Shown: one piece after another, positions 2,943-56,261 of the stretch
How the letters are laid out: every line of letters starts with the position of its first letter
Numbering within the stretch: the stretch's first letter is position 1
Source: Bacteroidota bacterium
GTDB lineage: Bacteria; Bacteroidota; Bacteroidia; Chitinophagales; Chitinophagaceae
Direction of reading: 5' to 3'
DNA: 56,671 nucleotides
Assembly (NCBI GenBank): GCA_026391455.1
Contig: JAPLEH010000007.1
Location: forward strand, 1 to 56,671
Notes under the pieces: model-generated
What the model was told of the DNA's origin: nothing
The model's input: the letters and a program-made list of their open reading frames with translations, nothing else
The model's database searches: none
Translations under genes and position numbers: made by a program

Positions 2943-3267
2943 GCCCTGGTGGTGAAATTGGTAGACACGCAGGACTTAAAATTGAAATTTGAGTGCCCAT
3001 TGGGAAACCTTTGGAGCAGAACCCTTCAAATTCGGGGAAGCCTTCATCACTGAACAGTGATTGGTAATCCCGAGCCAAGTCCCGGATTATTTCGGGAAAG
3101 GTGTAGAGACTAGACGGAGGGCATCTAAACCAGGTAGCAATACCTGACAAGATGAAGGTATAGTCCAGACCACAAAACCATCATACGATGGTGCAGCGAA
3201 AGCTGTGGTAGGTAAGAAAATCCTGTGGGCAGCAATGCCCGTAACGGTTCAACTCCGTTCCGGGGCA
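2943..3267 (+). tRNA. tRNA-Leu (UAA) interrupted by a group I intron
   Basis: The exons are 2943-2977 and 3217-3267. Joined, they give acceptor GCCCTGG/CCGGGGC, D-arm, anticodon arm CAGGA-CTTAAAA-TCCTG with anticodon TAA, a long variable arm and T-arm AACGG-TTCAACT-CCGTT. The intron enters directly after the wobble base U34, the same place as in cyanobacterial and plastid tRNA-Leu(UAA). Without removal of the intron this gene cannot give a functional tRNA for UUA codons, so splicing should be essential unless another tRNA-Leu(UAA) exists elsewhere. Confidence 0.95.
2978..3216 (+). ncRNA. Group I intron in tRNA-Leu(UAA)
   Basis: A 239-nt self-splicing-type intron with no reading frame. It begins AAAATTGA and ends with G3216, as in the Anabaena tRNA-Leu intron. 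P1 forms between exon ACUU (2974-2977) and guide GAGU (2991-2994), with the conserved U-G pair at the 5' splice site (T2977, G2991). Core strands resemble the cyanobacterial ones: CCGAGCCAAGTCCCGG (3070-3085), GTGTAGAGACTAGACGG (3101-3117) and AAGATGAAGGTATAGTCC (3149-3166). P9 pairs ACCACA (3169-3174) with TGTGGT (3204-3209) and encloses ACCATC/GATGGT and a GAAA-capped hairpin. The size is close to the roughly 249-nt Anabaena intron. Splicing itself is inferred. Confidence 0.93.
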
Positions 3268-9995: not shown

Positions 9996-10850
9996 TCATA
10001 GAACTAAGTTCCTTCTTAATAATTCTATTATCCTATCGCGCAAATTTCCTGTCGCATAAGTAAATTTACCAGTATGGTGACCAAAATAATAAGACAAATC
10101 CGCTGTATAAATTTTTGATTGAAATTTATCTGTGTAAGAACCCTTCAAATAAATACAAAACCCTTTAGTAGAATTTAAATTGATATCGCCCAAGTCAATT
10201 TCATTTGTAATTATATTTTCTTCAGTAATCTCCCGACCGTTTGTTGGAAATTGCCATGATTTTAAAAAATATAATTCGTTCAAAGTATCAACAAGAATAA
10301 AAGAAGTACTCATGTTAATAATCTTTGCCCATGCTCCCATACTAGTGTAAGAAATAAATAAAATCTTTTTCTTATCTCTTATTTCCAATCTAGGACCAGG
10401 AGGCAATAATTCAATGGTAGGCCTTTTGTCGACAGGTATTATTATAGTCCTATTACTTGAATCTCGTAGTTTATGGATTTCTTTTTTAAATGTATCAAGT
10501 TGCATATTCTGCTTACCAAATGCAATTGAAATATCCTCATAAAGTTTAAATCGGTTTGAATCTACGGCAAGCTTAACTCTTGATTCAAAAATAGAATCTC
10601 TTACCCGATTGTTGATTTCAACTTCTTTGTCTCTAATTTTATTTATGACTTGGGAATTATATTCTTGGAAAACCAATAATGTTGCCATAATAAAAAGTAC
10701 ACATAAGACAATCCGACCTCTCTTTGTAAATTTTTTCCAAAAAGATGAACGTCTATTATCTGTTAAACTACCTTTCGTGGTTAAAAATGTCAAATAGATA
10801 GTAGATAAGCCTATTAATACAACAAATAAAATATTGGGTAGTGGGAACAT
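9996..10850 (-). CDS. Membrane protein with two N-terminal helices, unknown
   Basis: 284 residues from the ATG at 10850. Two membrane segments (about 3-23 and 47-62) are followed by a coiled-coil-prone stretch (EVEINNRVRDSIFESRVKLA) and a C-terminal beta-rich domain. The gene is clearly more AT-rich than those beyond 12000 and sits at the edge of an AT-rich intergenic block, which may mean acquisition from elsewhere. No known motif; function unknown. Confidence 0.6.
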   Translation of the reverse strand: MFPLPNILFVVLIGLSTIYLTFLTTKGSLTDNRRSSFWKKFTKRGRIVLCVLFIMATLLVFQEYNSQVINKIRDKEVEINNRVRDSIFESRVKLAVDSNRFKLYEDISIAFGKQNMQLDTFKKEIHKLRDSSNRTIIIPVDKRPTIELLPPGPRLEIRDKKKILFISYTSMGAWAKIINMSTSFILVDTLNELYFLKSWQFPTNGREITEENIITNEIDLGDINLNSTKGFCIYLKGSYTDKFQSKIYTADLSYYFGHHTGKFTYATGNLRDRIIELLRRNLVL

Positions 10851-11341
10851 AACAGAATTCAATAAAATATTTTAATAATCATTACTTAAAGTTACTGAAA
10901 AAGAACTTGTTTTAGTAGGATAACCAAATCGACTTTTAATTCCTATTAAAAAATCGCGGCCATTTTGCCCTTCATAAAGGACAAAAGAAAAATAATTTTT
11001 ATTAAACAATTCTATTAACCAAATGCGGAGTATAAACAAAATCCCATCGATAACTTAAAAATATTATTACAACTTATCGATACTGGCAAATATCCAAGAT
11101 TTTTTTTCATTATTTAAAGCGCTTTTACAAGCATACGCGTTAGTAAATTCATTATTCATGCCTTTTTCTTACACACTTTATTTTATTTAAAAATCTCAAA
11201 ACCCTTGATGTTTTATTAAATCAATCCTAAATCAAAACTGTAATCTGATCACTACAAGTCCAAAACAAATTCTTAAAAACACCCTACGTAGTTTTTGCAT
11301 TTCTATCATTCTATTCCTTACTTTTATCCTGCTTTTCTAAA
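10851..11341. other. AT-rich intergenic stretch without a recognisable gene
   Basis: About 490 bases, strongly AT-rich, with stop codons scattered through all frames and no RNA gene that I can recognise. Confidence 0.6.
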
Positions 11342-11500
11342 CACCGAAGACGGGTAACACCCGCCATAAAAATGTTGCGGGCTTTTTTGTGCCTGCAACA
11401 TTTTACAGATAATACGGTTCTGCACCCCCGTGCAAGCTTGTAATGGGCTTGCTGTCTTCGGTGACGAAAAGCAACGGGACAGGCAGAACCGTATTTTTTT
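11342..11500 (+). ncRNA. Possible pseudoknotted RNA or leader ending in an intrinsic terminator
   Basis: Four nested or crossing inverted repeats. A: CACCGAAGAC (11342-11351) with GTCTTCGGTG (11454-11463). B: 14-base arms at 11369-11382 and 11391-11404, with one G-T pair. C: AATACGGTTCTGC (11411-11423) with GCAGAACCGTATT (11483-11495), perfect. D: GCAAGC/GCTTGC (11432-11452). Helices A and C interleave, so they form a pseudoknot if both exist. C is followed directly by seven T, as in a terminator. A small hairpin CGGGT/ACCCG lies next to A. The element ends 24 bases before a 66-codon ORF, so it could be a stand-alone small RNA or an attenuator-like leader. No known RNA family is recognised. 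Confidence 0.5.
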
Positions 11501-11524
11501 CTGCCAACTTAAATACCTTACACT

Positions 11525-11725
11525 ATGGCTACCCCCAACCCACAACGGGTGTATGAAGCACTCCTCAATGGAAACAAAGACCTCTTCCTGCTCGACAACC
11601 TCATTTCCACCGGCAAAGCCGTGTTTTGCTTTCTCCGCGCAGCCGACTTGGACGATGAAATGAAGTACGCTTTCTTCGAACTGGAAAAACGGTTTCACTT
11701 CTATGCATCGCTGCTGGAAGAGTAA
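11525..11725 (+). CDS. Small helical protein, unknown
   Basis: 66 residues, no signal peptide, predicted mostly helical (VYEALLNGNKDLFLLDNLIS, then MKYAFFELEKRFHFYASLLEE). The frame is more GC-rich than its flanks, has an ATG start, and lies between the structured element ending at 11500 and a terminator hairpin at 11773, which argues for a real expressed gene. Family not recognised; a possible single-gene unit controlled by the upstream RNA. Confidence 0.55.
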   Translation: MATPNPQRVYEALLNGNKDLFLLDNLISTGKAVFCFLRAADLDDEMKYAFFELEKRFHFYASLLEE

Positions 11726-11772
11726 CAACCTTACGCAACAATTCAACTAACCATATTTTATACTTCCGCCTT

Positions 11773-11810
11773 AGCTATGCGAAACTTCCGTTTTGCATAG
11801 CTATTTTATT
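11773..11810 (+). terminator. Intrinsic terminator after the 66-codon ORF
   Basis: 13-bp stem AGCTATGCGAAAC/GTTTTGCATAGCT (one G-T pair) with a 4-base loop, followed by ATTTTATT. Confidence 0.6.
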
Positions 11811-11814
11811 CACA

Positions 11815-11924
11815 GCTATACGAAACTTGTAGTTTCGTAAGCCTATTCTATTGCCTGTGGCAATGTTTACAATCTTTATTGCCAAAGGCAATAGAATAAA
11901 CGTGTTCGGCTGCAAGCCGAACAC
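11815..11924. repeat. Cluster of short inverted repeats
   Basis: Three further hairpins in 110 bases: TACGAAAC/GTTTCGTA (11819-11839); a 12-bp pairing of TATTCTATTGCC (11844-11855) with GGCAATAGAATA (11887-11898), which also contains two local ATTGCC/GGCAAT hairpins; and GTGTTCGGC/GCCGAACAC (11902-11924). The string AGCTATRCGAAACTT occurs at both 11773 and 11815. Confidence 0.7.
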
Positions 11925-12066
11925 AGCGATCTCAAAAGGAAAAAAAGTAACACAATTAAATCGTATTACTTTTTATTATAAATTGTTTTAATAGCCCCAT
12001 TCTTTACCAACAATCCCCCACAAATACAACCGCAGAATCGTAGTTTTGAACCAAAGGAAATCCTAC

Positions 12067-47009: not shown

Positions 47010-47040
47010 ACAATCCGCTGCAATCCATTAATTTTAGGGT

Positions 47041-48375
47041 ATGGAATTGGATACCCTTTTACAGCAAATTGACTCCCTTAAAAAAGAAGCCGAATCTCTG
47101 CAACCGGTAAAGCCGGAATACGAGCGCGTATTCTGGGAAAAATTCCGGCTGGAGTTTAATTTTAATTCCAATCATATCGAGGGAAATACCCTCACATATG
47201 GGCAAACTCAGTTGTTACTGCTCTTTGACCGGGTAAGCGGTGAAAATACTGGCAGAGAAATAGAAGAAATGAAAGCGCATGATGTGGCATTATCAATGAT
47301 TCAAGAAATAGCAAACGACAAAGAAGGCAAGTTAACTGAGAAATTAATAAAGGAAATTAATAAGTTGATACTGGTAAGACCCTATTATAATAAAGCCATA
47401 ACATCTGACAGGAAACCTACTCGAAGGTTGATCACCCCAGGCAATTATAAAAAGTATCCCAATTCAGTGCTTTTACAAACCGGTGAAATGTTTTTTTATG
47501 CAAGCCCTGAAGAAACACCCGCCCTAATGGGAGATTTAATAGACTGGTATAATACAGAAAAGGCGAATGCTCATGCTGTTGAATTAGCGGCACAGTTTCA
47601 TTACAAAATGGTACGAATTCATCCTTTTGACGATAGCAATGGAAGGACTACCAGACTAATGATGAACTTTATTTTAATGCAAAACGGCTACGCCCCGATT
47701 GTGATCGAAAGCAGTAAAAAAGAGGAGTACCTTACTGCTTTAAACAAAGCTGACTTGGGTAATATTGACGACTTTATTGAATACATTTCTGGGATTACTT
47801 TAAAATGGCAAAATTTATACCTCAAAGCAATAAGAGGTGAACGTATTTCTGAACCCGGAGATTTTGAAAAAGAGGTAGAAATAATTAAAAGAAATGCAGA
47901 GGCCGGAAAGAAAGCCAAAATTAAAAAATCAGAAAAACTTATAACTGAGCTGTTTAATCAATCCCTTTTCCCGTTGATTAAAAGAGTAAATGCAAAGTTA
48001 TCCCTATTAAATCCGTTGTTTAAAAAAACAACAATTGAATTTTCAATGAACGGAAATAACTTTTCAGAAAGTAATATCGAAAATTTAATTTCAAGAATCA
48101 ATCATCAACTACCCGGATTACTGATACATGAACAAATTGAAATCACATATCGCTTCCAACATTTCATAGGAACAGAAGAGAAAAGAATAAATCTTATTTT
48201 TTGTTTAATTTTTAAATTATCTGACTACTCTTATGAAATAAACCTGAATAATGATAATTCCAAAATTATCAGAAAAAAGTATGGCCAACATTTAACAGAG
48301 CCTGAAACTGAGAATTTTGCTGAAATGGCAGCAAGGACAGCTTTAGATGAAATAAAAAACAGAGGAATAAACTAG
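47041..48375 (+). CDS. Fic family protein with N-terminal inhibitory motif
   Basis: Fic enzymes usually transfer AMP to hydroxyl side chains of target proteins. 444 residues. The active loop is HPFDDSNGRTTR (His194 to Arg205), close to HPFx(D/E)GN(G/K)R but with Ser199 instead of the first Gly. SNHIEGN (43-49) is the (S/T)xxxE(G/N) inhibitory helix of class II Fic proteins, with Glu47 expected to block ATP. The C-terminal 180 residues are Lys-rich and encoded by more AT-rich DNA than the Fic core, with no recognised domain. Its stop touches the tRNA-Val gene on the other strand. Confidence 0.9.
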   Translation: MELDTLLQQIDSLKKEAESLQPVKPEYERVFWEKFRLEFNFNSNHIEGNTLTYGQTQLLLLFDRVSGENTGREIEEMKAHDVALSMIQEIANDKEGKLTEKLIKEINKLILVRPYYNKAITSDRKPTRRLITPGNYKKYPNSVLLQTGEMFFYASPEETPALMGDLIDWYNTEKANAHAVELAAQFHYKMVRIHPFDDSNGRTTRLMMNFILMQNGYAPIVIESSKKEEYLTALNKADLGNIDDFIEYISGITLKWQNLYLKAIRGERISEPGDFEKEVEIIKRNAEAGKKAKIKKSEKLITELFNQSLFPLIKRVNAKLSLLNPLFKKTTIEFSMNGNNFSESNIENLISRINHQLPGLLIHEQIEITYRFQHFIGTEEKRINLIFCLIFKLSDYSYEINLNNDNSKIIRKKYGQHLTEPETENFAEMAARTALDEIKNRGIN

Positions 48376-48450
48376 TGGAACGTACTGGACTCGAACCAGT
48401 GACCCCTGCTCTGTCAAAGCAGTGCTCTAAACCAACTGAGCTAACGTTCC
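48376..48450 (-). tRNA. tRNA-Val (GAC)
   Basis: 75 nt: acceptor GGAACGT/ACGTTCC, D-arm, anticodon arm CTGCT-TTGACAG-AGCAG with anticodon GAC, T-arm ACTGG-TTCGAGT-CCAGT. It lies on the minus strand, between the Fic gene and the conflict operon. Confidence 0.96.
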
Positions 48451-48524
48451 CGGGGCGACAAAAATAATCGTTTTCCCCATTCCTCCCTATCCCAACCGTG
48501 AATTCACCCACCCGGCTTCGGTGA

Positions 48525-48576
48525 TTACCCCCGATAGCTAATTCAAAAAATACCCTTTTTTTGGTATTGGGGGTAA
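48525..48576. promoter_or_regulatory. Interrupted inverted repeat upstream of the conflict operon
   Basis: The continuous arm GGTATTGGGGGTAA (48563-48576) pairs with AATACC (48549-48554) and TTACCCCC (48525-48532), which are separated by 16 bases containing the half palindrome CCCGATAGCTA. It could be an operator, a terminator or a damaged hairpin; about 100 bases before the first operon gene. Confidence 0.45.
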
Positions 48577-48680
48577 CCCCGCTTAAGTTTATCTTACGCT
48601 AAATACCACAAGCTAAGTCCGGGTTTATCCGGGTGCCGTTGGTGTATCTAGGATTTATTAAACCCCATTAAACTACCTGT

Positions 48681-49838
48681 ATGTCGCTGGTTGATGCCGT
48701 TAGCGCGGGAAAAGTGATCGAGACGCTCGAAAATTACGCCGTCAACAGTGATACGGCTGTGGCTGAGGATATCACATCCACAGAGGCATACCCTGATTTC
48801 TATTCAGACGAAAGTTTTTGGAAGCGCTTTTTTAAAACCCCCGAACAGTTCTGGAATAAACCCCTTTCCTTCTACTACGTTACCCTTACCGAATGGGTGG
48901 CAAGGGTACCCGGGCTTTTCTGGAGTGAAAACGCAGCCCGCTATCGAAACGCCGCCGTCAATAATGTGGAATTTATCAGTGAAGCCTGGAAAACGTATAC
49001 GCCACAGGGCAAATCCAGCATTGTAATGGGTGGTATCGGTGATTTCATTTTGCCACCGGCAGAAAACGGAGCCGTGATCATGACCATCAGTTTTTCCAAC
49101 AATGCTTCCACCGGAATACCCGTATTGATACAACCCCATGTGGTGGAACATCACCAGTTGAAACAAGGCGATAATCTGAATATCTCCCAAGCCGTGTTCC
49201 GTAAAATGACGCAGGAATGGTCATCCCGTTTCCCTTCTTTTAACTCGATCAAAAGAGGTTACCTTGTCGTAGATGACCCTGCTCAAATAAAAGTACGGAA
49301 TCGTGATCAGCCCGTTGAATTTCATCCCTGTACCATTATGGAATATAATGCCGGCGATGCTATCTTATACGATTATGTATTTTGTACAGCCGATACCCGC
49401 TTTGCCAACTCCCGAAAAAGATTGGAAGATTTTTTTACAGCTTATAAAAATGATAAAGAACGGTATGGCCGCTACCTCATTGCAGCGGATGCCAATGATC
49501 CCCTCTTCGAAGCGGATTATATCAGCCCGCTTGATCTGCAACGGGCAGAACCTGACGGTCGTTCACAACTTGCATTAATAACAGAACGCGTACAAAACAG
49601 CTTTTATCACCGCGGCGAAACCATCAATACACTGCTGGAGAAAATTCCGGCCTTGTATGCTAACAGCGATGCAGTGCTGGCACTGGCTGTAGAAACCGGT
49701 CTGCCGCTTGCAGCTATACAGCCTGCTTCACCCGCAAAAATGTCGGTGCAACTGGTAGATCTCTGTATTGAAAGGAGAATACTGGAAGTGCTGGTAGACA
49801 GATTATTGTCAGATAACCCTTCAATCATTCACCAATAA
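48681..49838 (+). CDS. Unknown domain plus EAD-like C-terminal region (conflict system component)
   Basis: 385 residues, no signal peptide or membrane helix. Residues 1-290 form a globular alpha/beta domain I do not recognise: WNKPLSFYYVTLTEWVARVPGLFWSE near 55-85, then KSSIVMGGIGDFILPP (about 110) and a conserved-looking FHPCTIMEYNAGDAILYDY (about 220). Residues 297-385 have the length and spacing of an effector-associated domain (INTLLEKIPALYANSDAVLALAVETGL...VDRLLSDNP). First of five tightly packed genes; the next starts 10 bases after its stop. It may be a sensor, an adaptor or a new effector. Confidence 0.65.
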   Translation: MSLVDAVSAGKVIETLENYAVNSDTAVAEDITSTEAYPDFYSDESFWKRFFKTPEQFWNKPLSFYYVTLTEWVARVPGLFWSENAARYRNAAVNNVEFISEAWKTYTPQGKSSIVMGGIGDFILPPAENGAVIMTISFSNNASTGIPVLIQPHVVEHHQLKQGDNLNISQAVFRKMTQEWSSRFPSFNSIKRGYLVVDDPAQIKVRNRDQPVEFHPCTIMEYNAGDAILYDYVFCTADTRFANSRKRLEDFFTAYKNDKERYGRYLIAADANDPLFEADYISPLDLQRAEPDGRSQLALITERVQNSFYHRGETINTLLEKIPALYANSDAVLALAVETGLPLAAIQPASPAKMSVQLVDLCIERRILEVLVDRLLSDNPSIIHQ

Positions 49839-49848
49839 ATATATACAT

Positions 49849-50823
49849 ATGTGGAAATACACTCAACTTAGCGACACCCTTTCCGGACTTTACTACCGGA
49901 CAAAGGAAATTACCGAACTCATTATCCGTGCTGGCTTCTCCCCTGCCAAATTCGATCTGGATGGCTCTGCAAATGTTGTATGGACACTTGCGGTAAAAAG
50001 AATGGAACAGATGGGCCAGGTGATTAAGATCGTAGATGCTGCTTTGACCGATTACCCGGAAAATCCTGTATTGCTGGATTATAAATCGGATAAAGCCGTT
50101 GTTACCAAGTCTGTTTATGCTGGCGATCAGCCAGACTGGAAAGGATCATCGGGTTTGCCTGCCTTCGAAAAGATTACCGGAGAACAAAGCACATTACTTC
50201 CGTTCAGCTTTTTTGAAAAAGGCACCATCAAAGGTAAAGCTGTAGCCAGGGTATTAACCCCCGATGGCATGGGTACTGGATTTCTGATCAGTGAAGACGG
50301 GTTATTTCTTACCAATAACCATGTATTCCCCGATGAGAACACAGCGTTTAACAGTTCCGTTCAATTCAATTATCAGCAAACCATAAAAGGACTGCCCGCA
50401 TCAGACATCAAACTAAAAGTGAGCAATACCGTATTTGCTACCAGTCCGGATGATGACTGGAGCATTGTAAAGATCGAAGGGAACCCTGCCAAAGATTTTG
50501 GATTTCTGAAACTCACTAATCAGGTCGTGGCAAAAGATGATTTTGTAAATATCATTCAGCACCCCGGTGGAGAATTCAAGCAGATTGGTATCTACCATAA
50601 TGTAGTGACAAATGTGAGCAATAACCGGGTGCAGTACCTCACCGACACCATGCCGGGATCATCCGGTTCGCCGGTTTTCAATTCCAATTGGGAGGTAGTG
50701 GCCCTTCATCATAGCGGGGGATTTTTTGCAGAGCCGGGAAGTAATAACCGAGTATTGCGCAATGAAGGCATCGATATTAACAAAGTCATTTCTGATTTAA
50801 AAGCAAAAGGGTTTAATATATGA
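49849..50823 (+). CDS. EAD1-trypsin-like serine protease
   Basis: 324 residues. The N-terminal 80 residues match effector-associated domain 1 (LSGLYYRTKEITELI, AGFSP, WTLAVKRMEQMGQ, DYPENPVL), an adaptor found on effectors and NTPases of NTP-dependent conflict systems. A chymotrypsin-fold protease follows with a complete triad: His158 (LTNNHVF), Asp203 (DDDWSIVKI) and Ser272 (MPGSSGSPVF). No signal peptide, so it should act in the cytosol. Its stop overlaps the next start by four bases (ATGA). It probably cleaves a cell or invader protein once recruited. Confidence 0.88.
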   Translation: MWKYTQLSDTLSGLYYRTKEITELIIRAGFSPAKFDLDGSANVVWTLAVKRMEQMGQVIKIVDAALTDYPENPVLLDYKSDKAVVTKSVYAGDQPDWKGSSGLPAFEKITGEQSTLLPFSFFEKGTIKGKAVARVLTPDGMGTGFLISEDGLFLTNNHVFPDENTAFNSSVQFNYQQTIKGLPASDIKLKVSNTVFATSPDDDWSIVKIEGNPAKDFGFLKLTNQVVAKDDFVNIIQHPGGEFKQIGIYHNVVTNVSNNRVQYLTDTMPGSSGSPVFNSNWEVVALHHSGGFFAEPGSNNRVLRNEGIDINKVISDLKAKGFNI

Positions 50824-51608
50824 TCAAACGACTAAAAGATGACATCTTTAATACACTCTGGAAAGAAGTGTCCGAATTGTATCCCACACAGGCCAACATT
50901 CAGGTATTAATGGCCAATGCGGGTTTTAAATGGCAGCAGGTACAGTTACAGGGCACCGGCGAAAATATGGTCTATTCCTTACTCAGTCTGGCAGAAAAAG
51001 AAGGCCGCATTTCCGATATTGTGAATACGGTACTCTCACCCGGTGAATTTCCAGGCAATGCCACACTCGCATCCATACAGAAAGGGTTACAGGACGATTC
51101 GGCATACCTGCCTGCTATGAAAGATTTACCATTGGCCAACCCCGATACCGGGAAAGATGTAAAGGTGATGCTTATTTATGACCGGCAGGATCATGAAATT
51201 GCCGGCGACTTAAATAAACAACTTTATCCTTTTGAAGCTTTTGCGAAAAAATTTACCGTATTCGATATGCATACTTCACCGGAAGTATCCGGTGGTGTTG
51301 ATGCAAAACAGGTCATTGATACCAAACTGAAAGAAGCACAGATCGTATTACTTTTACTAACACCCAATTTTTTGGGTACGCCGGGTAACGATTGCGCCAA
51401 ACTGGCCTTTAATGCTTTCGAATTGGGAAAAAGAGTAATTCCGGTATTACTCAAGCCTTGCATGTGGGACCGCATTGCCATGTTGGAAAACATCGTTCCC
51501 CTTCCCAAGAATAAAGAATATGTATCCAATGCTAAACATAAAGACAATGTGCTGTTGCAGATCGCATACGGGGTGGAAGAAGTGGCCAATGCTTTAAAAG
51601 TAAAATAA
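50820..51608 (+). CDS. EAD-like domain plus TIR domain protein
   Basis: 262 residues. Residues 1-95 resemble an effector-associated domain (VSELYPTQANIQVLMANAGF, GRISDIVNTVL, FPGNATL). Residues 113-262 are a TIR domain: VKVMLIYDRQDHEIAGDLNKQL, AQIVLLLLTPNFL and RVIPVLLKPCMWD, with the C-terminal helix GVEEVANAL. TIR domains often cleave NAD or act as adaptors. By eye the expected catalytic Glu after the NFL motif is not obvious (GNDCAKLAF occupies the place), so it may be adaptor-like. Translationally coupled to the protease upstream. Confidence 0.85.
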   Translation: MIKRLKDDIFNTLWKEVSELYPTQANIQVLMANAGFKWQQVQLQGTGENMVYSLLSLAEKEGRISDIVNTVLSPGEFPGNATLASIQKGLQDDSAYLPAMKDLPLANPDTGKDVKVMLIYDRQDHEIAGDLNKQLYPFEAFAKKFTVFDMHTSPEVSGGVDAKQVIDTKLKEAQIVLLLLTPNFLGTPGNDCAKLAFNAFELGKRVIPVLLKPCMWDRIAMLENIVPLPKNKEYVSNAKHKDNVLLQIAYGVEEVANALKVK

Positions 51609-51615
51609 AGAATAC

Positions 51616-52911
51616 ATGCCACTAACCGATGATAACTGGAATGCCTTTTTAACAGAGCTGCGCTCTGGCCAATGCTGCCTGCTGCTGGGACCGGAAATAA
51701 AATGTATTCCGGATGAACAGGATAAAGACTTGCATCATTCGGTTACTGATCTGTTTGCAGCATTCCTTAAAAAAAAGCTGGATGCGGCAAACACAAAGTA
51801 CAATAACGAAGAAAATGATTTTTTTTACTTGGCCAACCGGTATATCAATACCAACTACCCGGGACAGGAAACCAAATTTGAATCCGAGATCAACGCTTTT
51901 AAAGAACAACTCACAACCAAAGATCCACCCTTTTTCAAAAAAATAGCAAGGCTGCCTTTCAACTCGGTGGTGAACCTCGTGCCGGATAATTTCTTATCTG
52001 CACAACTCACCAGTATCGGTTATGAATTTGTGGACGATTATTATGATTATACCGTTAGCAGAGATATCGACATCACCAATGAAATGCAATTGGTGTATAA
52101 TCTGTTTGGCTCCTTTGAAAATAGCGCTTCTATAGCAGTAACCGAACAGCAACGGCTCAACCTGCTGAAGAACCTGATCTCCGGATCGCCAAAGATCCAG
52201 GATAAGATCACCAACCGTTTCTCCGATAAAAAGAAATCCTTTCTCTTTCTCGGATTCAATTTCAATGACTGGCATTTCCGGCTGGTGATGGATGCGTTAA
52301 AAATTTCCAAACCGAATAATTTTTCCTTTTCTCCGCTCATCGGCAAAGAACAATCTGTAGGGTTTCTGACACGCGAATTCTACTCTGAAAAATTAGGACT
52401 GAACCTGGTGGATCAAACCACCGAAGAATTCACCGATGAACTGGCCAATCGGTACCAGGCAAAATTTGGCGACTTTGACCGCAAGCTGAAAGTAGTACTC
52501 GATTATCTGGATGCGGATACTACCCAGGTGGAAGAATTTAAAACTGCATTGGATGTAAGCGGATTATCCACCCGCATTGAACTTTGGCATAAGGGGCTGC
52601 TGAAAGGTGGAGATACTATCAAGGAAACGGAAGAGAAAGTACAAGAAGCCGAAGTATATATCGCATTTCTGAGTAATGCCTTCTTAAAAGAACCCGGTTA
52701 CAAAGAACGGGTAACCGCATCGCTGAATGAGGAAAATAAAAAAGTGATACTGGTCTATACCAACTTTTGCCCCTTCGAAAAAATATTGCCGGTAAAAAAA
52801 GCACGGATCATTCTTCCGCGCAATAATGTACCGCTCTCTTCGAAAACAGGTACCGATCTGGCACAGGTATGCCACGAAGCAGTTCGCATCATTAATTCTG
52901 TAGTACGATGA
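51616..52911 (+). CDS. SIR2-like plus TIR-like domain protein
   Basis: 431 residues. The N-terminal 280 residues follow the SIR2-like layout of defence proteins: GQCCLLLGPEI, a SVVNLVPDNFL strand where active SIR2 domains have TxNxD, VYNLFGSF where the catalytic HG is expected, and FLFLGFNFNDWHFR. The Rossmann core is present but the catalytic Asn-Asp/His residues look replaced. Residues about 290-431 are TIR-like (KLKVVLDYLDAD, RIELWHKG, AEVYIAFLSNAFL, KKVILVYTNF), with Glu in GYKERV as a candidate catalytic acid. Starts 7 bases after the previous stop and overlaps the NTPase gene by four bases. Confidence 0.78.
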   Translation: MPLTDDNWNAFLTELRSGQCCLLLGPEIKCIPDEQDKDLHHSVTDLFAAFLKKKLDAANTKYNNEENDFFYLANRYINTNYPGQETKFESEINAFKEQLTTKDPPFFKKIARLPFNSVVNLVPDNFLSAQLTSIGYEFVDDYYDYTVSRDIDITNEMQLVYNLFGSFENSASIAVTEQQRLNLLKNLISGSPKIQDKITNRFSDKKKSFLFLGFNFNDWHFRLVMDALKISKPNNFSFSPLIGKEQSVGFLTREFYSEKLGLNLVDQTTEEFTDELANRYQAKFGDFDRKLKVVLDYLDADTTQVEEFKTALDVSGLSTRIELWHKGLLKGGDTIKETEEKVQEAEVYIAFLSNAFLKEPGYKERVTASLNEENKKVILVYTNFCPFEKILPVKKARIILPRNNVPLSSKTGTDLAQVCHEAVRIINSVVR

Positions 52912-55900
52912 GTACACAACGAAAAATAGAAACCGATCGCTACCCCGGCCCCAAACCCTATGAGGAGTCTGAAAAGGATCTCTTCTTCGGACGCTCTCAG
53001 GAAACAGAAGCCCTCTTCGAATCGGTATCAGTGAATAATGTATTTGTTTTGCATGCCGAGTCGGGATTAGGAAAATCATCACTCATCGCGGCAGGCCTGA
53101 TGCCCCGGCTGCGCACCGGAAATTTTCTTCCGGTACTCATCCGGTTTAAAAACAGGAAGACATCTCCGATGAAGGCCGTAACCGATGCCATACATGAAGC
53201 TTATAAAAAAAATTTGAGAGATACCCAATCAACCTCAGACAACAACGCGTTGTTGACCGATGAAGAAACAGATACCTGGAAAATGGTAAAGAAGATCAAT
53301 TTTCAGGGTTTTGTACCGGTGCTCATCTTCGATCAGTTTGAAGAGTTCAATTATTTCCCGGCTGAAACCAGAAAAGAAACCATACTCAAACTGGGTGAAC
53401 TCACTGCCCTGCGCTTGCCGGATCATATACGAAGAGAGACTAACAATGCCAACAGGTCTGTGCCTGAAAACTGGTATTCACAACCGGAGGTAAAACTGAT
53501 CTTCAGTATCCGTACAGACCGTATCGGCATTATGGAAGAACTGGCCGATGCCATACCTGACACCCGTACCAACCGCTACGAACTCTCCCCCATGATGGCC
53601 GAGCAGGGTGAGCAGGTGATCATATTGCCTGCAGCGATGGAATCGTCTGAAGATATATTTTTCAATAGTCAGCCCTTTCAATATGAACCGGGTTTGATAA
53701 AAACGATACTCGACATTGTACGAAGGAAAAACAATACGATCGACACCACGCAACTGCAGATCATTTGCCTGGAAATACAGGAACGGGTAAAAAGTAAGAT
53801 TACGCAGGAGGAGATGCTGGTGGTAACAGAAAAAGAACTCGGTGGCAAAACCGGACTGGAGGACCTGGTAAAGAATTTCTATGTAAAACAATTAGCCAAA
53901 ATTTCAGAGAAAGAGAATATCGATCCGGTTGAATATCAATCTATCCGTGTTTTACTTGAGAAAAAAATGATCGTACAGGGTAAGAAAGACCGGCTCAGTG
54001 AAGATGCCATTTTCCAGCATTTTCGAAATCGCGATATAAAGGAAGACAGGATAAAGCCCTTGTTGGATGAATTACTGAGCCTGCGTTTGATTCGTGGTAT
54101 TGATTTTGAAGAATCCACTTTTTATGAAATAGCACATGATACCCTGATCTCTCCCATTCTCCAGGAAATGGAAAACCGCGAACGGAAGGAAGCTGTGGAG
54201 AAAGAAAAGAAACAGGCGGAGGAACAGGCCAAAACGCAGGCGGAGGAATTGCGAAAGCAACGGCTCCAAACGGCCAAAGAAGTAGAACTGCGCAAAAAAG
54301 CCACAGAAGCAGAGATACATGCCCGCGAAGAAGAACGCAAAGCCAAAGACGCGGAAGAAAAAGCAAAGGCCGCAGAGCGAAAGGCCAATGAAGTAGCCGC
54401 AGAACTCAGTAAAAATGTGGCCAAGCTGGAAGATGCGGTAAAGCGAAAACGCCGCATGCAACGGTTCGTTTTTGGCGCCGTAGTAATCTTTTTTCTGCTT
54501 TCCATTTTCCTGGTGTATTATCTTCTGCAAACACGCAACAGCCGCCGGGAAGTGAGTGTGCTCACCGCCTATAAAAATTATATTACTGGAGACAGTGCAT
54601 ATGAAAAAGCAAATCATAAAATAGCTGCGAACAATTATATATGGTCTGCCGATGCGGGTAATGCTGATGCAGCAGAAAAATTAAACCAACTGCCGTTTTC
54701 TCTACTGGCCTGGACAGATAGTGCTAAAATGAAAACCAGTTTTACCGATCCATTCAGCAGCAGGATCGTTTATTCCAACGACAAAAGCAAATGCCTGATA
54801 CTGAACAGTGACCGTACTGCCATGTTATGGAATATACAAAATGAAAAGCCGGAATTTATTTCAAGTGTACCCAATACGGTGAATCCTGTTTTTTCTGATG
54901 ACAACCGTTACCTTCTTTATTTTCGTCCCGATACCACACCTGTTTTGTATGATATTACTGCAAAGCAAGTACGCAACATTGCAGCGGCCAAAGAGGGAAT
55001 GGAACCACTACCCTCCTATAAACTAACTATTAACCCTGAAATTTATATGGGTACGCCGAAACTATTCGCGCTCGGCGGCAGTTATATGATCGTTACCACC
55101 AATGCAGGACTTCCTTACCTGATCACCCCACCCGATAGTACGGGGGTGGCATATTATCATCGCTTAACCGATTATATAAGGGCTAACCCACTGGACCAGA
55201 TGGCTTCATTTAGCAGTGTCCGTGGTGAGATCAAATACAACATGATAAGTCCGACGGGGATAACCAATAATAAGCTGTACGCATTATCTCCCGATGGGAA
55301 ATACCTGGCAACCTATAATCCCGGCAATTCATGGTTATTTATTTATGATTTCGAAAGTAAGAAACAGGTATTTGCCAAACGGAATATTTCCGATTATGTA
55401 TTTACCAATACCAATTCCGGAATAGCATTACTGGAGCGATCAGGTAATGTTTTTTGGGGCGATTGTAAATCACCGGCACAAATTACTGCTATTACAGACC
55501 AACGACAACTTTCACCAATTAACAAAATATTGCTCTCGCCGGACAAGAAAAAACTCTATCTCGAAAGCTTCAACAGTGAAACTTTTGACTTCTACTTTCA
55601 GTTCAGCGATTCGACATTATATTCCATTGGCGACAAGTTAAAAGCAAAAGGAAAATCAGGGATTTCCTTCTATGCCTTCTCACTTGGTGATATTTATATA
55701 TCCCCCCGGGATAACTATTATTCAAGTTTCTTCCTGATGAATCTAAACTCAGGAGATACAGCCTTAATATATACACAAGCAACCAACAATATACTTTACA
55801 ATACCAACTATAACCGGCTGGTATTTGTTGATGATTCTGCGAGGCTCCATATTCTCAACGCTTCCAATTTTACCCAAACCGGACTGATTGAGCAGGTAAA

Positions 55901-56195
55901 CGCCACCCAAATATATCAGAATGAAAAAACGGGCAGCTTCTATTACTCCGATGAAAGTACACATGAAATAATGGAAATAGATCCCGTCAGTAATCAAAAA
56001 AAATCACTGGGCCATACATCCGCTGAAATAAAGGGCATGGTTAATAGCTTTATTGAACTGGAACTGGTCAAACCCGGCACGCTTACCGGCACCCATTGCC
56101 TGGTAAACCCTGGTAACCTTGCATTGAAGGGCGAAGAAAAAATTAAACACCTGCTGAATCTGTTCAAAATCAGCCGGCAGCCACGAAAAAAATAG
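52908..56195 (+). CDS. nSTAND NTPase with coiled coil, membrane helix and C-terminal beta-propeller
   Basis: 1095 residues, the likely signal-sensing hub of the operon. Order: nSTAND1-type P-loop ATPase starting PGPKPYEESEKDLFFGR (13-29), Walker A AESGLGKSS (50-58) and Walker B VPVLIFDQFEEF (136-147), then a helical arm with winged-helix-like segments to about 410; a long Glu/Lys/Ala coiled coil (about 414-511); one membrane helix (about 520-542); and a C-terminal region (about 600-1060) with WD-like strands (AMLWNIQNEKPEF, KYLATYNPGNSWLFIYDFESK), probably a beta-propeller. The topology suggests a cytosolic ATPase with a propeller beyond the membrane. No EAD of its own is visible. Confidence 0.87.
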   Translation: MSTQRKIETDRYPGPKPYEESEKDLFFGRSQETEALFESVSVNNVFVLHAESGLGKSSLIAAGLMPRLRTGNFLPVLIRFKNRKTSPMKAVTDAIHEAYKKNLRDTQSTSDNNALLTDEETDTWKMVKKINFQGFVPVLIFDQFEEFNYFPAETRKETILKLGELTALRLPDHIRRETNNANRSVPENWYSQPEVKLIFSIRTDRIGIMEELADAIPDTRTNRYELSPMMAEQGEQVIILPAAMESSEDIFFNSQPFQYEPGLIKTILDIVRRKNNTIDTTQLQIICLEIQERVKSKITQEEMLVVTEKELGGKTGLEDLVKNFYVKQLAKISEKENIDPVEYQSIRVLLEKKMIVQGKKDRLSEDAIFQHFRNRDIKEDRIKPLLDELLSLRLIRGIDFEESTFYEIAHDTLISPILQEMENRERKEAVEKEKKQAEEQAKTQAEELRKQRLQTAKEVELRKKATEAEIHAREEERKAKDAEEKAKAAERKANEVAAELSKNVAKLEDAVKRKRRMQRFVFGAVVIFFLLSIFLVYYLLQTRNSRREVSVLTAYKNYITGDSAYEKANHKIAANNYIWSADAGNADAAEKLNQLPFSLLAWTDSAKMKTSFTDPFSSRIVYSNDKSKCLILNSDRTAMLWNIQNEKPEFISSVPNTVNPVFSDDNRYLLYFRPDTTPVLYDITAKQVRNIAAAKEGMEPLPSYKLTINPEIYMGTPKLFALGGSYMIVTTNAGLPYLITPPDSTGVAYYHRLTDYIRANPLDQMASFSSVRGEIKYNMISPTGITNNKLYALSPDGKYLATYNPGNSWLFIYDFESKKQVFAKRNISDYVFTNTNSGIALLERSGNVFWGDCKSPAQITAITDQRQLSPINKILLSPDKKKLYLESFNSETFDFYFQFSDSTLYSIGDKLKAKGKSGISFYAFSLGDIYISPRDNYYSSFFLMNLNSGDTALIYTQATNNILYNTNYNRLVFVDDSARLHILNASNFTQTGLIEQVNATQIYQNEKTGSFYYSDESTHEIMEIDPVSNQKKSLGHTSAEIKGMVNSFIELELVKPGTLTGTHCLVNPGNLALKGEEKIKHLLNLFKISRQPRKK

Positions 56196-56261
56196 CTGTG
56201 TATAAACAAAAATGTACGGATAACCACAAGTTCCCTACTTTTATGGTCTCATACACACCTT

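Follow-up and report, generated by a model that had tools for sequence, protein, structure and literature searches.

Bacterial TIR and SIR2 domains are usually interpreted as effectors that destroy nicotinamide adenine dinucleotide (NAD). What would such domains do in an operon that also encodes a protease and a membrane-anchored STAND nucleoside triphosphatase (NTPase)? This question is raised by a five-gene locus at positions 48,681 to 56,195 of contig JAPLEH010000007.1 (assembly GCA_026391455.1), from a Bacteroidota bacterium of the family Chitinophagaceae; the whole stretch of DNA analysed, 56,671 nucleotides (nt) long, is called the window below. The five open reading frames (ORFs), g1 to g5 (Table 1), lie on the same strand and are separated by 10, -4, 7 and -4 nt, in exact agreement with a preliminary description of this DNA. 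Since g1 to g4 and the nSTAND1 part of g5 have relatives elsewhere, the five represent real genes and not chance ORFs. Pfam and hhalign identify related EADs on at least two of the genes, one of which also carries an effector domain, as in EAD-coupled conflict systems, and the earlier assignment to one operon of this class was right. The answer proposed here, which we regard as evenly balanced between right and wrong, is a single inducible pathway of self-harm or abortive defence, in which a membrane STAND sensor, a non-catalytic SIR2-TIR protein and an EAD1-TIR adaptor would act together with an EAD1-trypsin effector.

The SIR2 and TIR domains lack canonical catalytic residues

Domain calls were based on a Pfam scan (curated cut-offs of 24.2 bits for EAD1, PF19955, and 27.1 bits for nSTAND1), and profile searches for EAD, TIR, SIR2 and STAND domains, set beforehand as a check on the preliminary description, gave profile support. 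The protein g2 is an EAD1-trypsin, as had been described, and its His-Asp-Ser triad is intact in all 28 complete rows of the trypsin alignment, a count that includes the window and near-duplicates; one further row is broken off at a contig end. The SIR2-like and TIR domains that had been assigned to g4 are supported by matches to SIR2_2 (6.5e-10) and TIR_2 (5e-7). However, g4 carries F164 at the catalytic His column and V122 at the catalytic Asn column of SIR2, and R365 at the TIR Glu column in an alignment with Cat1. The SIR2 columns were controlled with PDB entries 9v0g, 9v12 and 7uxt, of which 9v12 has Ala for Asn and His at those columns relative to 9v0g. Across 45 SIR2 rows, which contain near-identical pairs (for example the window and P0107, one residue apart), the catalytic His is present in none and the catalytic Asn in seven, its column varying between T, V, N, S, A and Q. 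At the TIR Glu column, g4 has Arg, as do 15 of 15 rows examined there (P0107-P0121).

The EAD-like and TIR parts that had been proposed for g3 were both recovered, TIR_2 at 2e-6 and EAD1 at 4.2e-5, a marginal match of 24.3 bits against the cut-off of 24.2. A catalytic Glu was found in the relevant TIR helix of neither g3 nor its orthologue in L089, a locus from another genus of the same family. The structure model of the g3 TIR is of moderate confidence, and the structure-comparison rows cover the TIR part only, the EAD1 being assigned by profile.

Because this SIR2(-TIR) family has lost the SIR2 His in 45 of 45 rows, and because the Asn and the TIR Glu are missing from g4 as well, pseudoenzyme scaffolds are indicated, and for g4 the sequence points to such a role for both domains. 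Thus g4 lacks the His and Asn of SIR2 NADases of the ThsA/DSR/Avs5 type, and g3 and g4 lack the Glu of TIR NADases. Among the enzymes named by the preliminary description, judging from sequence, motifs are kept by the trypsin and the STAND ATPase only, and its proposal that proteolysis is joined by a second effector chemistry, possible NAD cleavage, is not supported. In a full version of that proposal, the STAND sensor would control both a trypsin that cuts proteins and SIR2 and/or TIR domains that use up NAD or produce cyclic ADP-ribose as a signal. We consider it improbable: the SIR2_2 and TIR_2 matches, weak PADLOC matches to ThsA (5.6e-4) and ThsB (8.3e-10) and a Glu near the TIR position in two distant SIR2-TIR relatives (L104 and L098) speak for it, but they are set against the missing His, the absence of Asn from 38 of the 45 rows including g4, the Arg at the TIR Glu column, and the Glu-less TIR helices of g3 and its L089 orthologue.

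Another alternative is that SIR2 and TIR are receptors and not adaptors, binding NAD or an NAD-derived signal (the product of another TIR, or one changed by phage) and gating the STAND protein. Such a role is suggested by the SIR2 profile match, which is retained in all 45 rows although the catalytic His is lost, and by the invariance of G213, F214 and W219 across 23 aligned rows; given the variable Asn column and the absence of a signal-making enzyme from the operon, we hold it to be quite unlikely.

Table 1 Features of the operon and of the left edge of its insertion site (window coordinates)
Feature	Position	Strand	Evidence
g1, 385 residues: conserved N-terminal peptide, OB-like beta-barrel, C-terminal EAD	48681..49838	+	
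g1 OB-like barrel, residues 38-215	48792..49325	+	AlphaFold2, whole-model mean pLDDT (predicted local distance difference test) 86.9
g1 EAD related to EAD1/EAD7, residues 297-385	49569..49835	+	Pfam matches of relatives, hhalign
g2, 324 residues: EAD1 and trypsin-like protease	49849..50823	+	Trypsin_2 1.8e-22, EAD1 3.4e-7 (31.1 bits)
g2 catalytic span: H158 (50320-50322), D203 (50455-50457), S272 (50662-50664)	50320..50664	+	Alignment
g3, 262 residues: EAD1 and TIR-fold domain without catalytic Glu, proposed adaptor	50820..51608	+	
g4, 431 residues: pseudo-SIR2 (1-281) and pseudo-TIR (286-431)	51616..52911	+	Pfam, alignments
g5, 1095 residues: nSTAND1 NTPase, charged linker, one transmembrane helix, probable WD40-like propeller	52908..56195	+	
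g5 nSTAND1, residues 12-427; Walker A near 53, Walker B near 141	52941..54188	+	
g5 transmembrane helix, residues 521-539	54468..54524	+	
g5 C-terminal region after the transmembrane helix, probable propeller, no close relative found	54543..56192	+	
tRNA-Val, left edge of insertion	48375..48450	-	

Two recurrent modules and the loci that join them

The first module consists of g1 and g2. A survey of g1 covered 28 GTDB loci with one genome per species, some of them near-identical (for example L013 and L031), and a gene with EAD1 begins at most 15 nt after g1 in 24 of these loci. These EAD1 genes encode a trypsin in 20 cases, are cut by a contig end in three (L007, L027 and L030) and comprise a short EAD1-only gene in L016; among the four exceptions, L014 and L025 have the EAD1-trypsin upstream, L015 lies at a contig edge and L032 is a fragment. 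The module occurs in varied surroundings. In Flavobacterium (L005), Pfam places GASH, DO-GTPase2, DO-GTPase1 and GAP1-EAD1 upstream and a NucA nuclease downstream; an alpha/beta hydrolase (L008) or a GDSL lipase (L018 and L022) follows g1-g2 in other loci; in Mesorhizobium (L029) a trypsin-NucA protein lies upstream and a NucA protein downstream; and in Spirosoma (L024) a subtilase lies upstream and an EAD1-SIR2 gene and nSTAND1 downstream, the upstream scan covering L024. On the Sinorhizobium meliloti plasmid pCpl, typed as conjugative (L113), a g1 relative and a trypsin-like peptidase follow an S8 peptidase and CHAT-domain genes. A further EAD1-trypsin related to g2, with an intact triad, lies on another contig of the window's own genome (L033:8250-9233, minus strand), adjoins a HAD/hemerythrin gene, has no g1 match in the 18 kb around it and may additionally be recruited by the EADs of g3 or g1.

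The second module consists of g4 and g5. It was surveyed in 20 loci drawn from at least about 50 SIR2-region matches in 348 genomes of the order; nSTAND1 begins no more than 51 nt from SIR2(-TIR) on the same strand in 16 of them, and lies 277 nt away in L105, 1373 nt in L104 and 7.3 kb in L097, with no nSTAND1 in L092. Ten genes near SIR2/nSTAND1 pairs were classified by Pfam, and most look unrelated to immunity; three possibly belong, namely a Sel1-TIR gene (L105), a nucleoside-phosphorylase-type gene (L103) and an FGE-sulfatase-type gene (L108:11540-12841, plus strand), the last of which overlaps the nSTAND1 gene by 4 nt and is perhaps a separate, exchangeable sensor gene. Directly upstream of the pair in L098 is an LRR-Roc-COR-TIR protein of 1126 residues (L098:6141-9521, plus strand), with a Glu in the expected TIR helix, which makes another TIR-TIR candidate.

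The two modules were found joined in three settings: g1-g5 in the window, g2-g3-g4-g5 in L089, and g1-g2-(EAD1-SIR2)-nSTAND1 in two Spirosoma species (L019 and L024). Homologues of the operon thus occur together in another genus and in the same order; the identical five-gene order was absent from all other genomes searched, and the variants found have four genes. In L089, the SIR2-TIR protein has 475 residues and the nSTAND1 protein 1011; the SIR2 part of the former was recognized by a custom profile (1.7e-43) and missed by Pfam SIR2_2, and its TIR_2 matches are below cut-off. Relatives of g1 (71%) and of g4 (67%) were each found on a jgi metagenome contig 20736 long, which suggests another joined locus. 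Across the 45 SIR2 rows, 37 carry a TIR, four an EAD1 and four neither; because none has both, it seems that this pseudo-SIR2 is coupled either by EAD1 or by TIR. In keeping with this, the loci with an EAD1-TIR gene (window and L089) have a TIR on SIR2, and the Spirosoma loci have EAD1 on SIR2 and no EAD1-TIR. An EAD1-TIR protein would therefore be present where SIR2 carries a TIR and an EAD1-trypsin adjoins, a rule drawn from the sequences of two loci together with Spirosoma.

Could the window instead hold two separate systems at a shared insertion site, a g1-g2(-g3) protease cassette and a SIR2-TIR/STAND pair? Each module is mostly found without the other among the loci examined, and in the window an EAD is detected on neither g4 nor g5, in contrast to the EAD1 on the SIR2 protein of Spirosoma. 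Nevertheless, g3, g4 and g5 follow each other at 7 and -4 nt, L089 keeps the same order, the EAD1-bearing SIR2 of Spirosoma sits between g2 and nSTAND1, and g3 and g4 both carry a TIR, so that we judge two systems to be a poor candidate.

The STAND protein and its membrane anchor

The nSTAND1 domain of g5 was matched by Pfam at 1.9e-25 (90.7 bits), and Walker A and B motifs are present in 22 of 22 partners of SIR2, with FEQ in place of FEE in L089. A transmembrane helix follows nSTAND1 in 19 of the 22 (window counted); the exceptions are two Spirosoma proteins, which peak just under the cut-off, and L098, which has none. Lys and Arg are richer on the N-terminal side of the helix in 18 of the 19, and in g5 seven lie in the 15 residues before it and three after it. 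For the C-terminal region a WD40-type Pfam match was obtained at 0.025, far under cut-off, together with three weak WD40-type relatives in a search over 7999 candidates; the corresponding regions of the window, L089 and Spirosoma STAND proteins matched only themselves or the sister Spirosoma protein among 4,468 ORFs (E <= 10). Of the earlier description of g5, nSTAND1 and the membrane anchor therefore stand, and the WD40-like propeller is probable. It is a natural inference from these sequences that g5 has a variable sensor across the membrane from its NTPase.

The OB-like protein that accompanies the protease

No Pfam family matches the sequence of g1 above its cut-off. The protein had been described as EAD-like, and this was borne out by its relatives, of which, among 52 aligned, 12 match EAD1 and 14 match EAD7 (E <= 0.5), and by hhalign, which links the last 89 residues to the EAD1 of g2 homologues (probability 96.2, P 2.4e-9; best probability 2.1 for 30 column-shuffled control profiles). 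A single-sequence search found g1 in one of 295 genomes of the class, that of the window, and a profile search in nine of 396 genomes of the order, including the window's genome and one partial match.

It is conceivable, if unlikely, that killing is really done by g1, which the trypsin would cleave after clustering, thereby freeing the OB-like barrel or the N-terminal peptide. The N-terminal residues are conserved, with N18 nearly invariant, in a low-pLDDT stretch ahead of the barrel, g1 is tightly paired with the protease gene, and protease-driven output, including protease-activated pro-nucleases, is documented for nuclease-protease pairs (PMC12799240). On the other hand, no enzyme or pore signature was found in g1, L089 has g2-g5 without g1, and other loci bring their own nuclease or lipase beside g1-g2.

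Proposed pathway

The pathway that we propose builds on what was observed, namely the genes with their domains and key residues, the order of the genes and the recurrence of the two modules, and would run as follows. The protein g5 would sit in the inner membrane, its STAND NTPase facing the cytosol and its propeller-like sensor, which changes fast, following the transmembrane helix, presumably outside the cytoplasm; g4, with catalytic residues missing from both domains, would support the STAND complex as a platform without catalytic activity. Once activated, g5 and g4 would oligomerise, the TIR of g4 would recruit that of g3, and the EAD1 of g3 would bring in g2 through its EAD1 and g1 through its EAD. 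This clustering would activate g2, whose trypsin is the one effector enzyme in evidence, with g1 as the constant partner of EAD1-trypsin, be it as substrate, cofactor or specificity factor.

In animal Toll-like receptor (TLR)-MyD88 signalling, a membrane sensor works with an adaptor in which a non-catalytic TIR is joined to a helical domain that makes homotypic contacts. By bridging TIR to EAD, g3 would act like MyD88. More tentatively than the pathway itself, and as a reading that we think has the chances somewhat against it, the operon may be a bacterial counterpart of TLR-MyD88, in which an outward-sensing transmembrane STAND receptor would signal through a non-catalytic TIR-TIR contact, between the SIR2-TIR and EAD1-TIR proteins, to a protease clustered by EADs and to the OB-EAD protein that accompanies it, the TIRs being purely assembly modules. 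The likeness lies in the membrane sensor and the TIR adaptor with EAD1, and a PDB comparison with the g4 profile gave the TIRs of MAL and MyD88 among its weak matches (E 0.0066-0.25); in contrast to the animal pathway, the receptor here is a STAND NTPase and the output a protease, and the analogy concerns wiring and claims no descent.

Several points weigh against the pathway or the analogy. Missing canonical residues do not prove that SIR2 or TIR is inactive, and besides the Glu of L104 and L098, the PDB protein that ranks first for the g4 TIR profile is the catalytic Cat1, with MAL and MyD88 behind it. By profile, neither EAD1 nor EAD1-type trypsin lies near SIR2 in 19 of the 20 surveyed loci (all but L089), and inactive SIR2 and TIR domains would leave these 19 with no evident output. 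L089 lacks g1. Full-length EAD1-TIR was found in two of 394 genomes of the family (window and L089), and the adaptor rule therefore rests on two loci and Spirosoma. The EADs of g1 and g2 are no more alike within than between loci (permutation p 0.24; mean rank 10.9 against an expected 10.5 in 20 loci, after removal of six near-duplicates), and the g3 EAD of the window is not closest to that of its own g2 (62, vs 99 for L089 g3 and 79 for C69); no lineage-specific EAD pairing was thus seen in g1/g2 or for g3 of the window. The Spirosoma SIR2 EAD is closest to the g2 EAD of its own locus among nine EADs compared, and likeness of EADs within one locus is described as a tendency and not a strict rule in EAD-coupled systems (PMC7159879). 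A death fold in EAD1 would be putative, the domain being assigned here by profile, and all interactions, the topology, activation, target and antiviral role are inferred.

Insertion site and surroundings

The gene for a MIase-like protein flanks the operon, and the same flank was found in five of 12 genomes of the genus, the window's genome included. The other four have tRNA-Val and MtaB beside the MIase-like gene and no operon (MtaB is a contig-edge fragment in one), and the operon profiles gave no match at these sites (best E 0.35). The operon therefore sits between the MIase-like gene and tRNA-Val at a site that is without it in these four relatives. The site is otherwise variable, with Fic across the tRNA in the window, three other ORFs there in L140 and a 396-residue ORF by the MIase-like gene in L141; the interval from MtaB to the MIase-like gene (47010-56261 in the window; L138-L141) varies in length and content and constitutes an insertion hotspot. 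The guanine plus cytosine (GC) content of the operon is 0.42-0.44, near most of the window. It dips to 0.333 at 10001-12000, as against 0.41-0.485 elsewhere in the window, and this low-GC stretch includes a 288-residue ORF (9996-10862, minus strand), with no other ORF of at least 150 residues between 10863 and 12045. A group I intron match (RF00028, 61 bits vs a gathering threshold of 50) lies at 2968-3189 on the plus strand, about 110 nt downstream of tRNA-Gly (2783-2856).

Comparison with known systems

The operon resembles EAD-coupled conflict systems (PMC7159879, PMC8195603), in which EAD1 is common to effectors and core, trypsin and TIR are cargo and the cores are STAND or GTPase proteins. 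EAD1 coupling is described in GAP1-N1 and NucA systems (PMC7159879), and relatives of g1-g2 occur in a GAP1-N1 GTPase locus and beside NucA genes. The core here differs in being a pseudo-SIR2-TIR and an nSTAND1 without EAD, to which EAD1-TIR would form a bridge through its TIR. SIR2 is mentioned not at all in the main text of PMC7159879 (2020) and once in that of PMC8195603 (2021), and the g1 family was not recognizable in the parts of either that were examined. In Thiohalocapsa, an EAD8-nSTAND1 sensor is likewise thought to recruit an EAD8-trypsin through matching EADs (PMC10907252), but there both the EAD and a sensor, a diversified C-type lectin, are part of the STAND protein itself, and the account in the available part of that source includes no SIR2 protein, EAD-TIR adaptor or g1.

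Thoeris is similar in having SIR2 and TIR domains in adjacent genes (ThsA and ThsB), to which the weak PADLOC matches correspond. In contrast to Thoeris, this operon lacks the catalytic residues, has SIR2 and TIR fused in g4 and adds a STAND protein and a protease, and no SLOG or macro domain was matched by Pfam in its proteins.

The CARD-NLR systems have an NTPase of a family different from nSTAND1. Caulobacter LypABC (PMC13236601) combines a death-type domain with a trypsin and an NLR-like NTPase, much as the operon puts EAD1 together with a trypsin and a STAND NTPase, and its lysis requires the trypsin Ser and the ATPase; a Lysobacter CARD-NLR system is cited in the same source. LypABC differs in that it has CARD, where the operon has EAD1 by profile, and TIR occurs nowhere in the text available of PMC13236601.

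The class of EAD-coupled STAND/protease conflict systems is thus already known, including EAD8-nSTAND1 with EAD8-trypsin (PMC10907252). New with respect to the literature searched are a pairing of pseudo-SIR2-TIR with nSTAND1 that recurs, an EAD1-TIR protein in the position of an adaptor, and an OB-like-EAD partner of EAD1-trypsin in several systems. EAD1-trypsin often has g1 as its partner, whether a GTPase, a nuclease, a lipase or a STAND protein is nearby, so that the role of g1 would account for many loci together. The pseudo-SIR2(-TIR) family warns against naming NADase effectors by domain label. If g3 does bridge TIR to EAD, this would be MyD88-type adaptor wiring in bacteria, testable with five genes.

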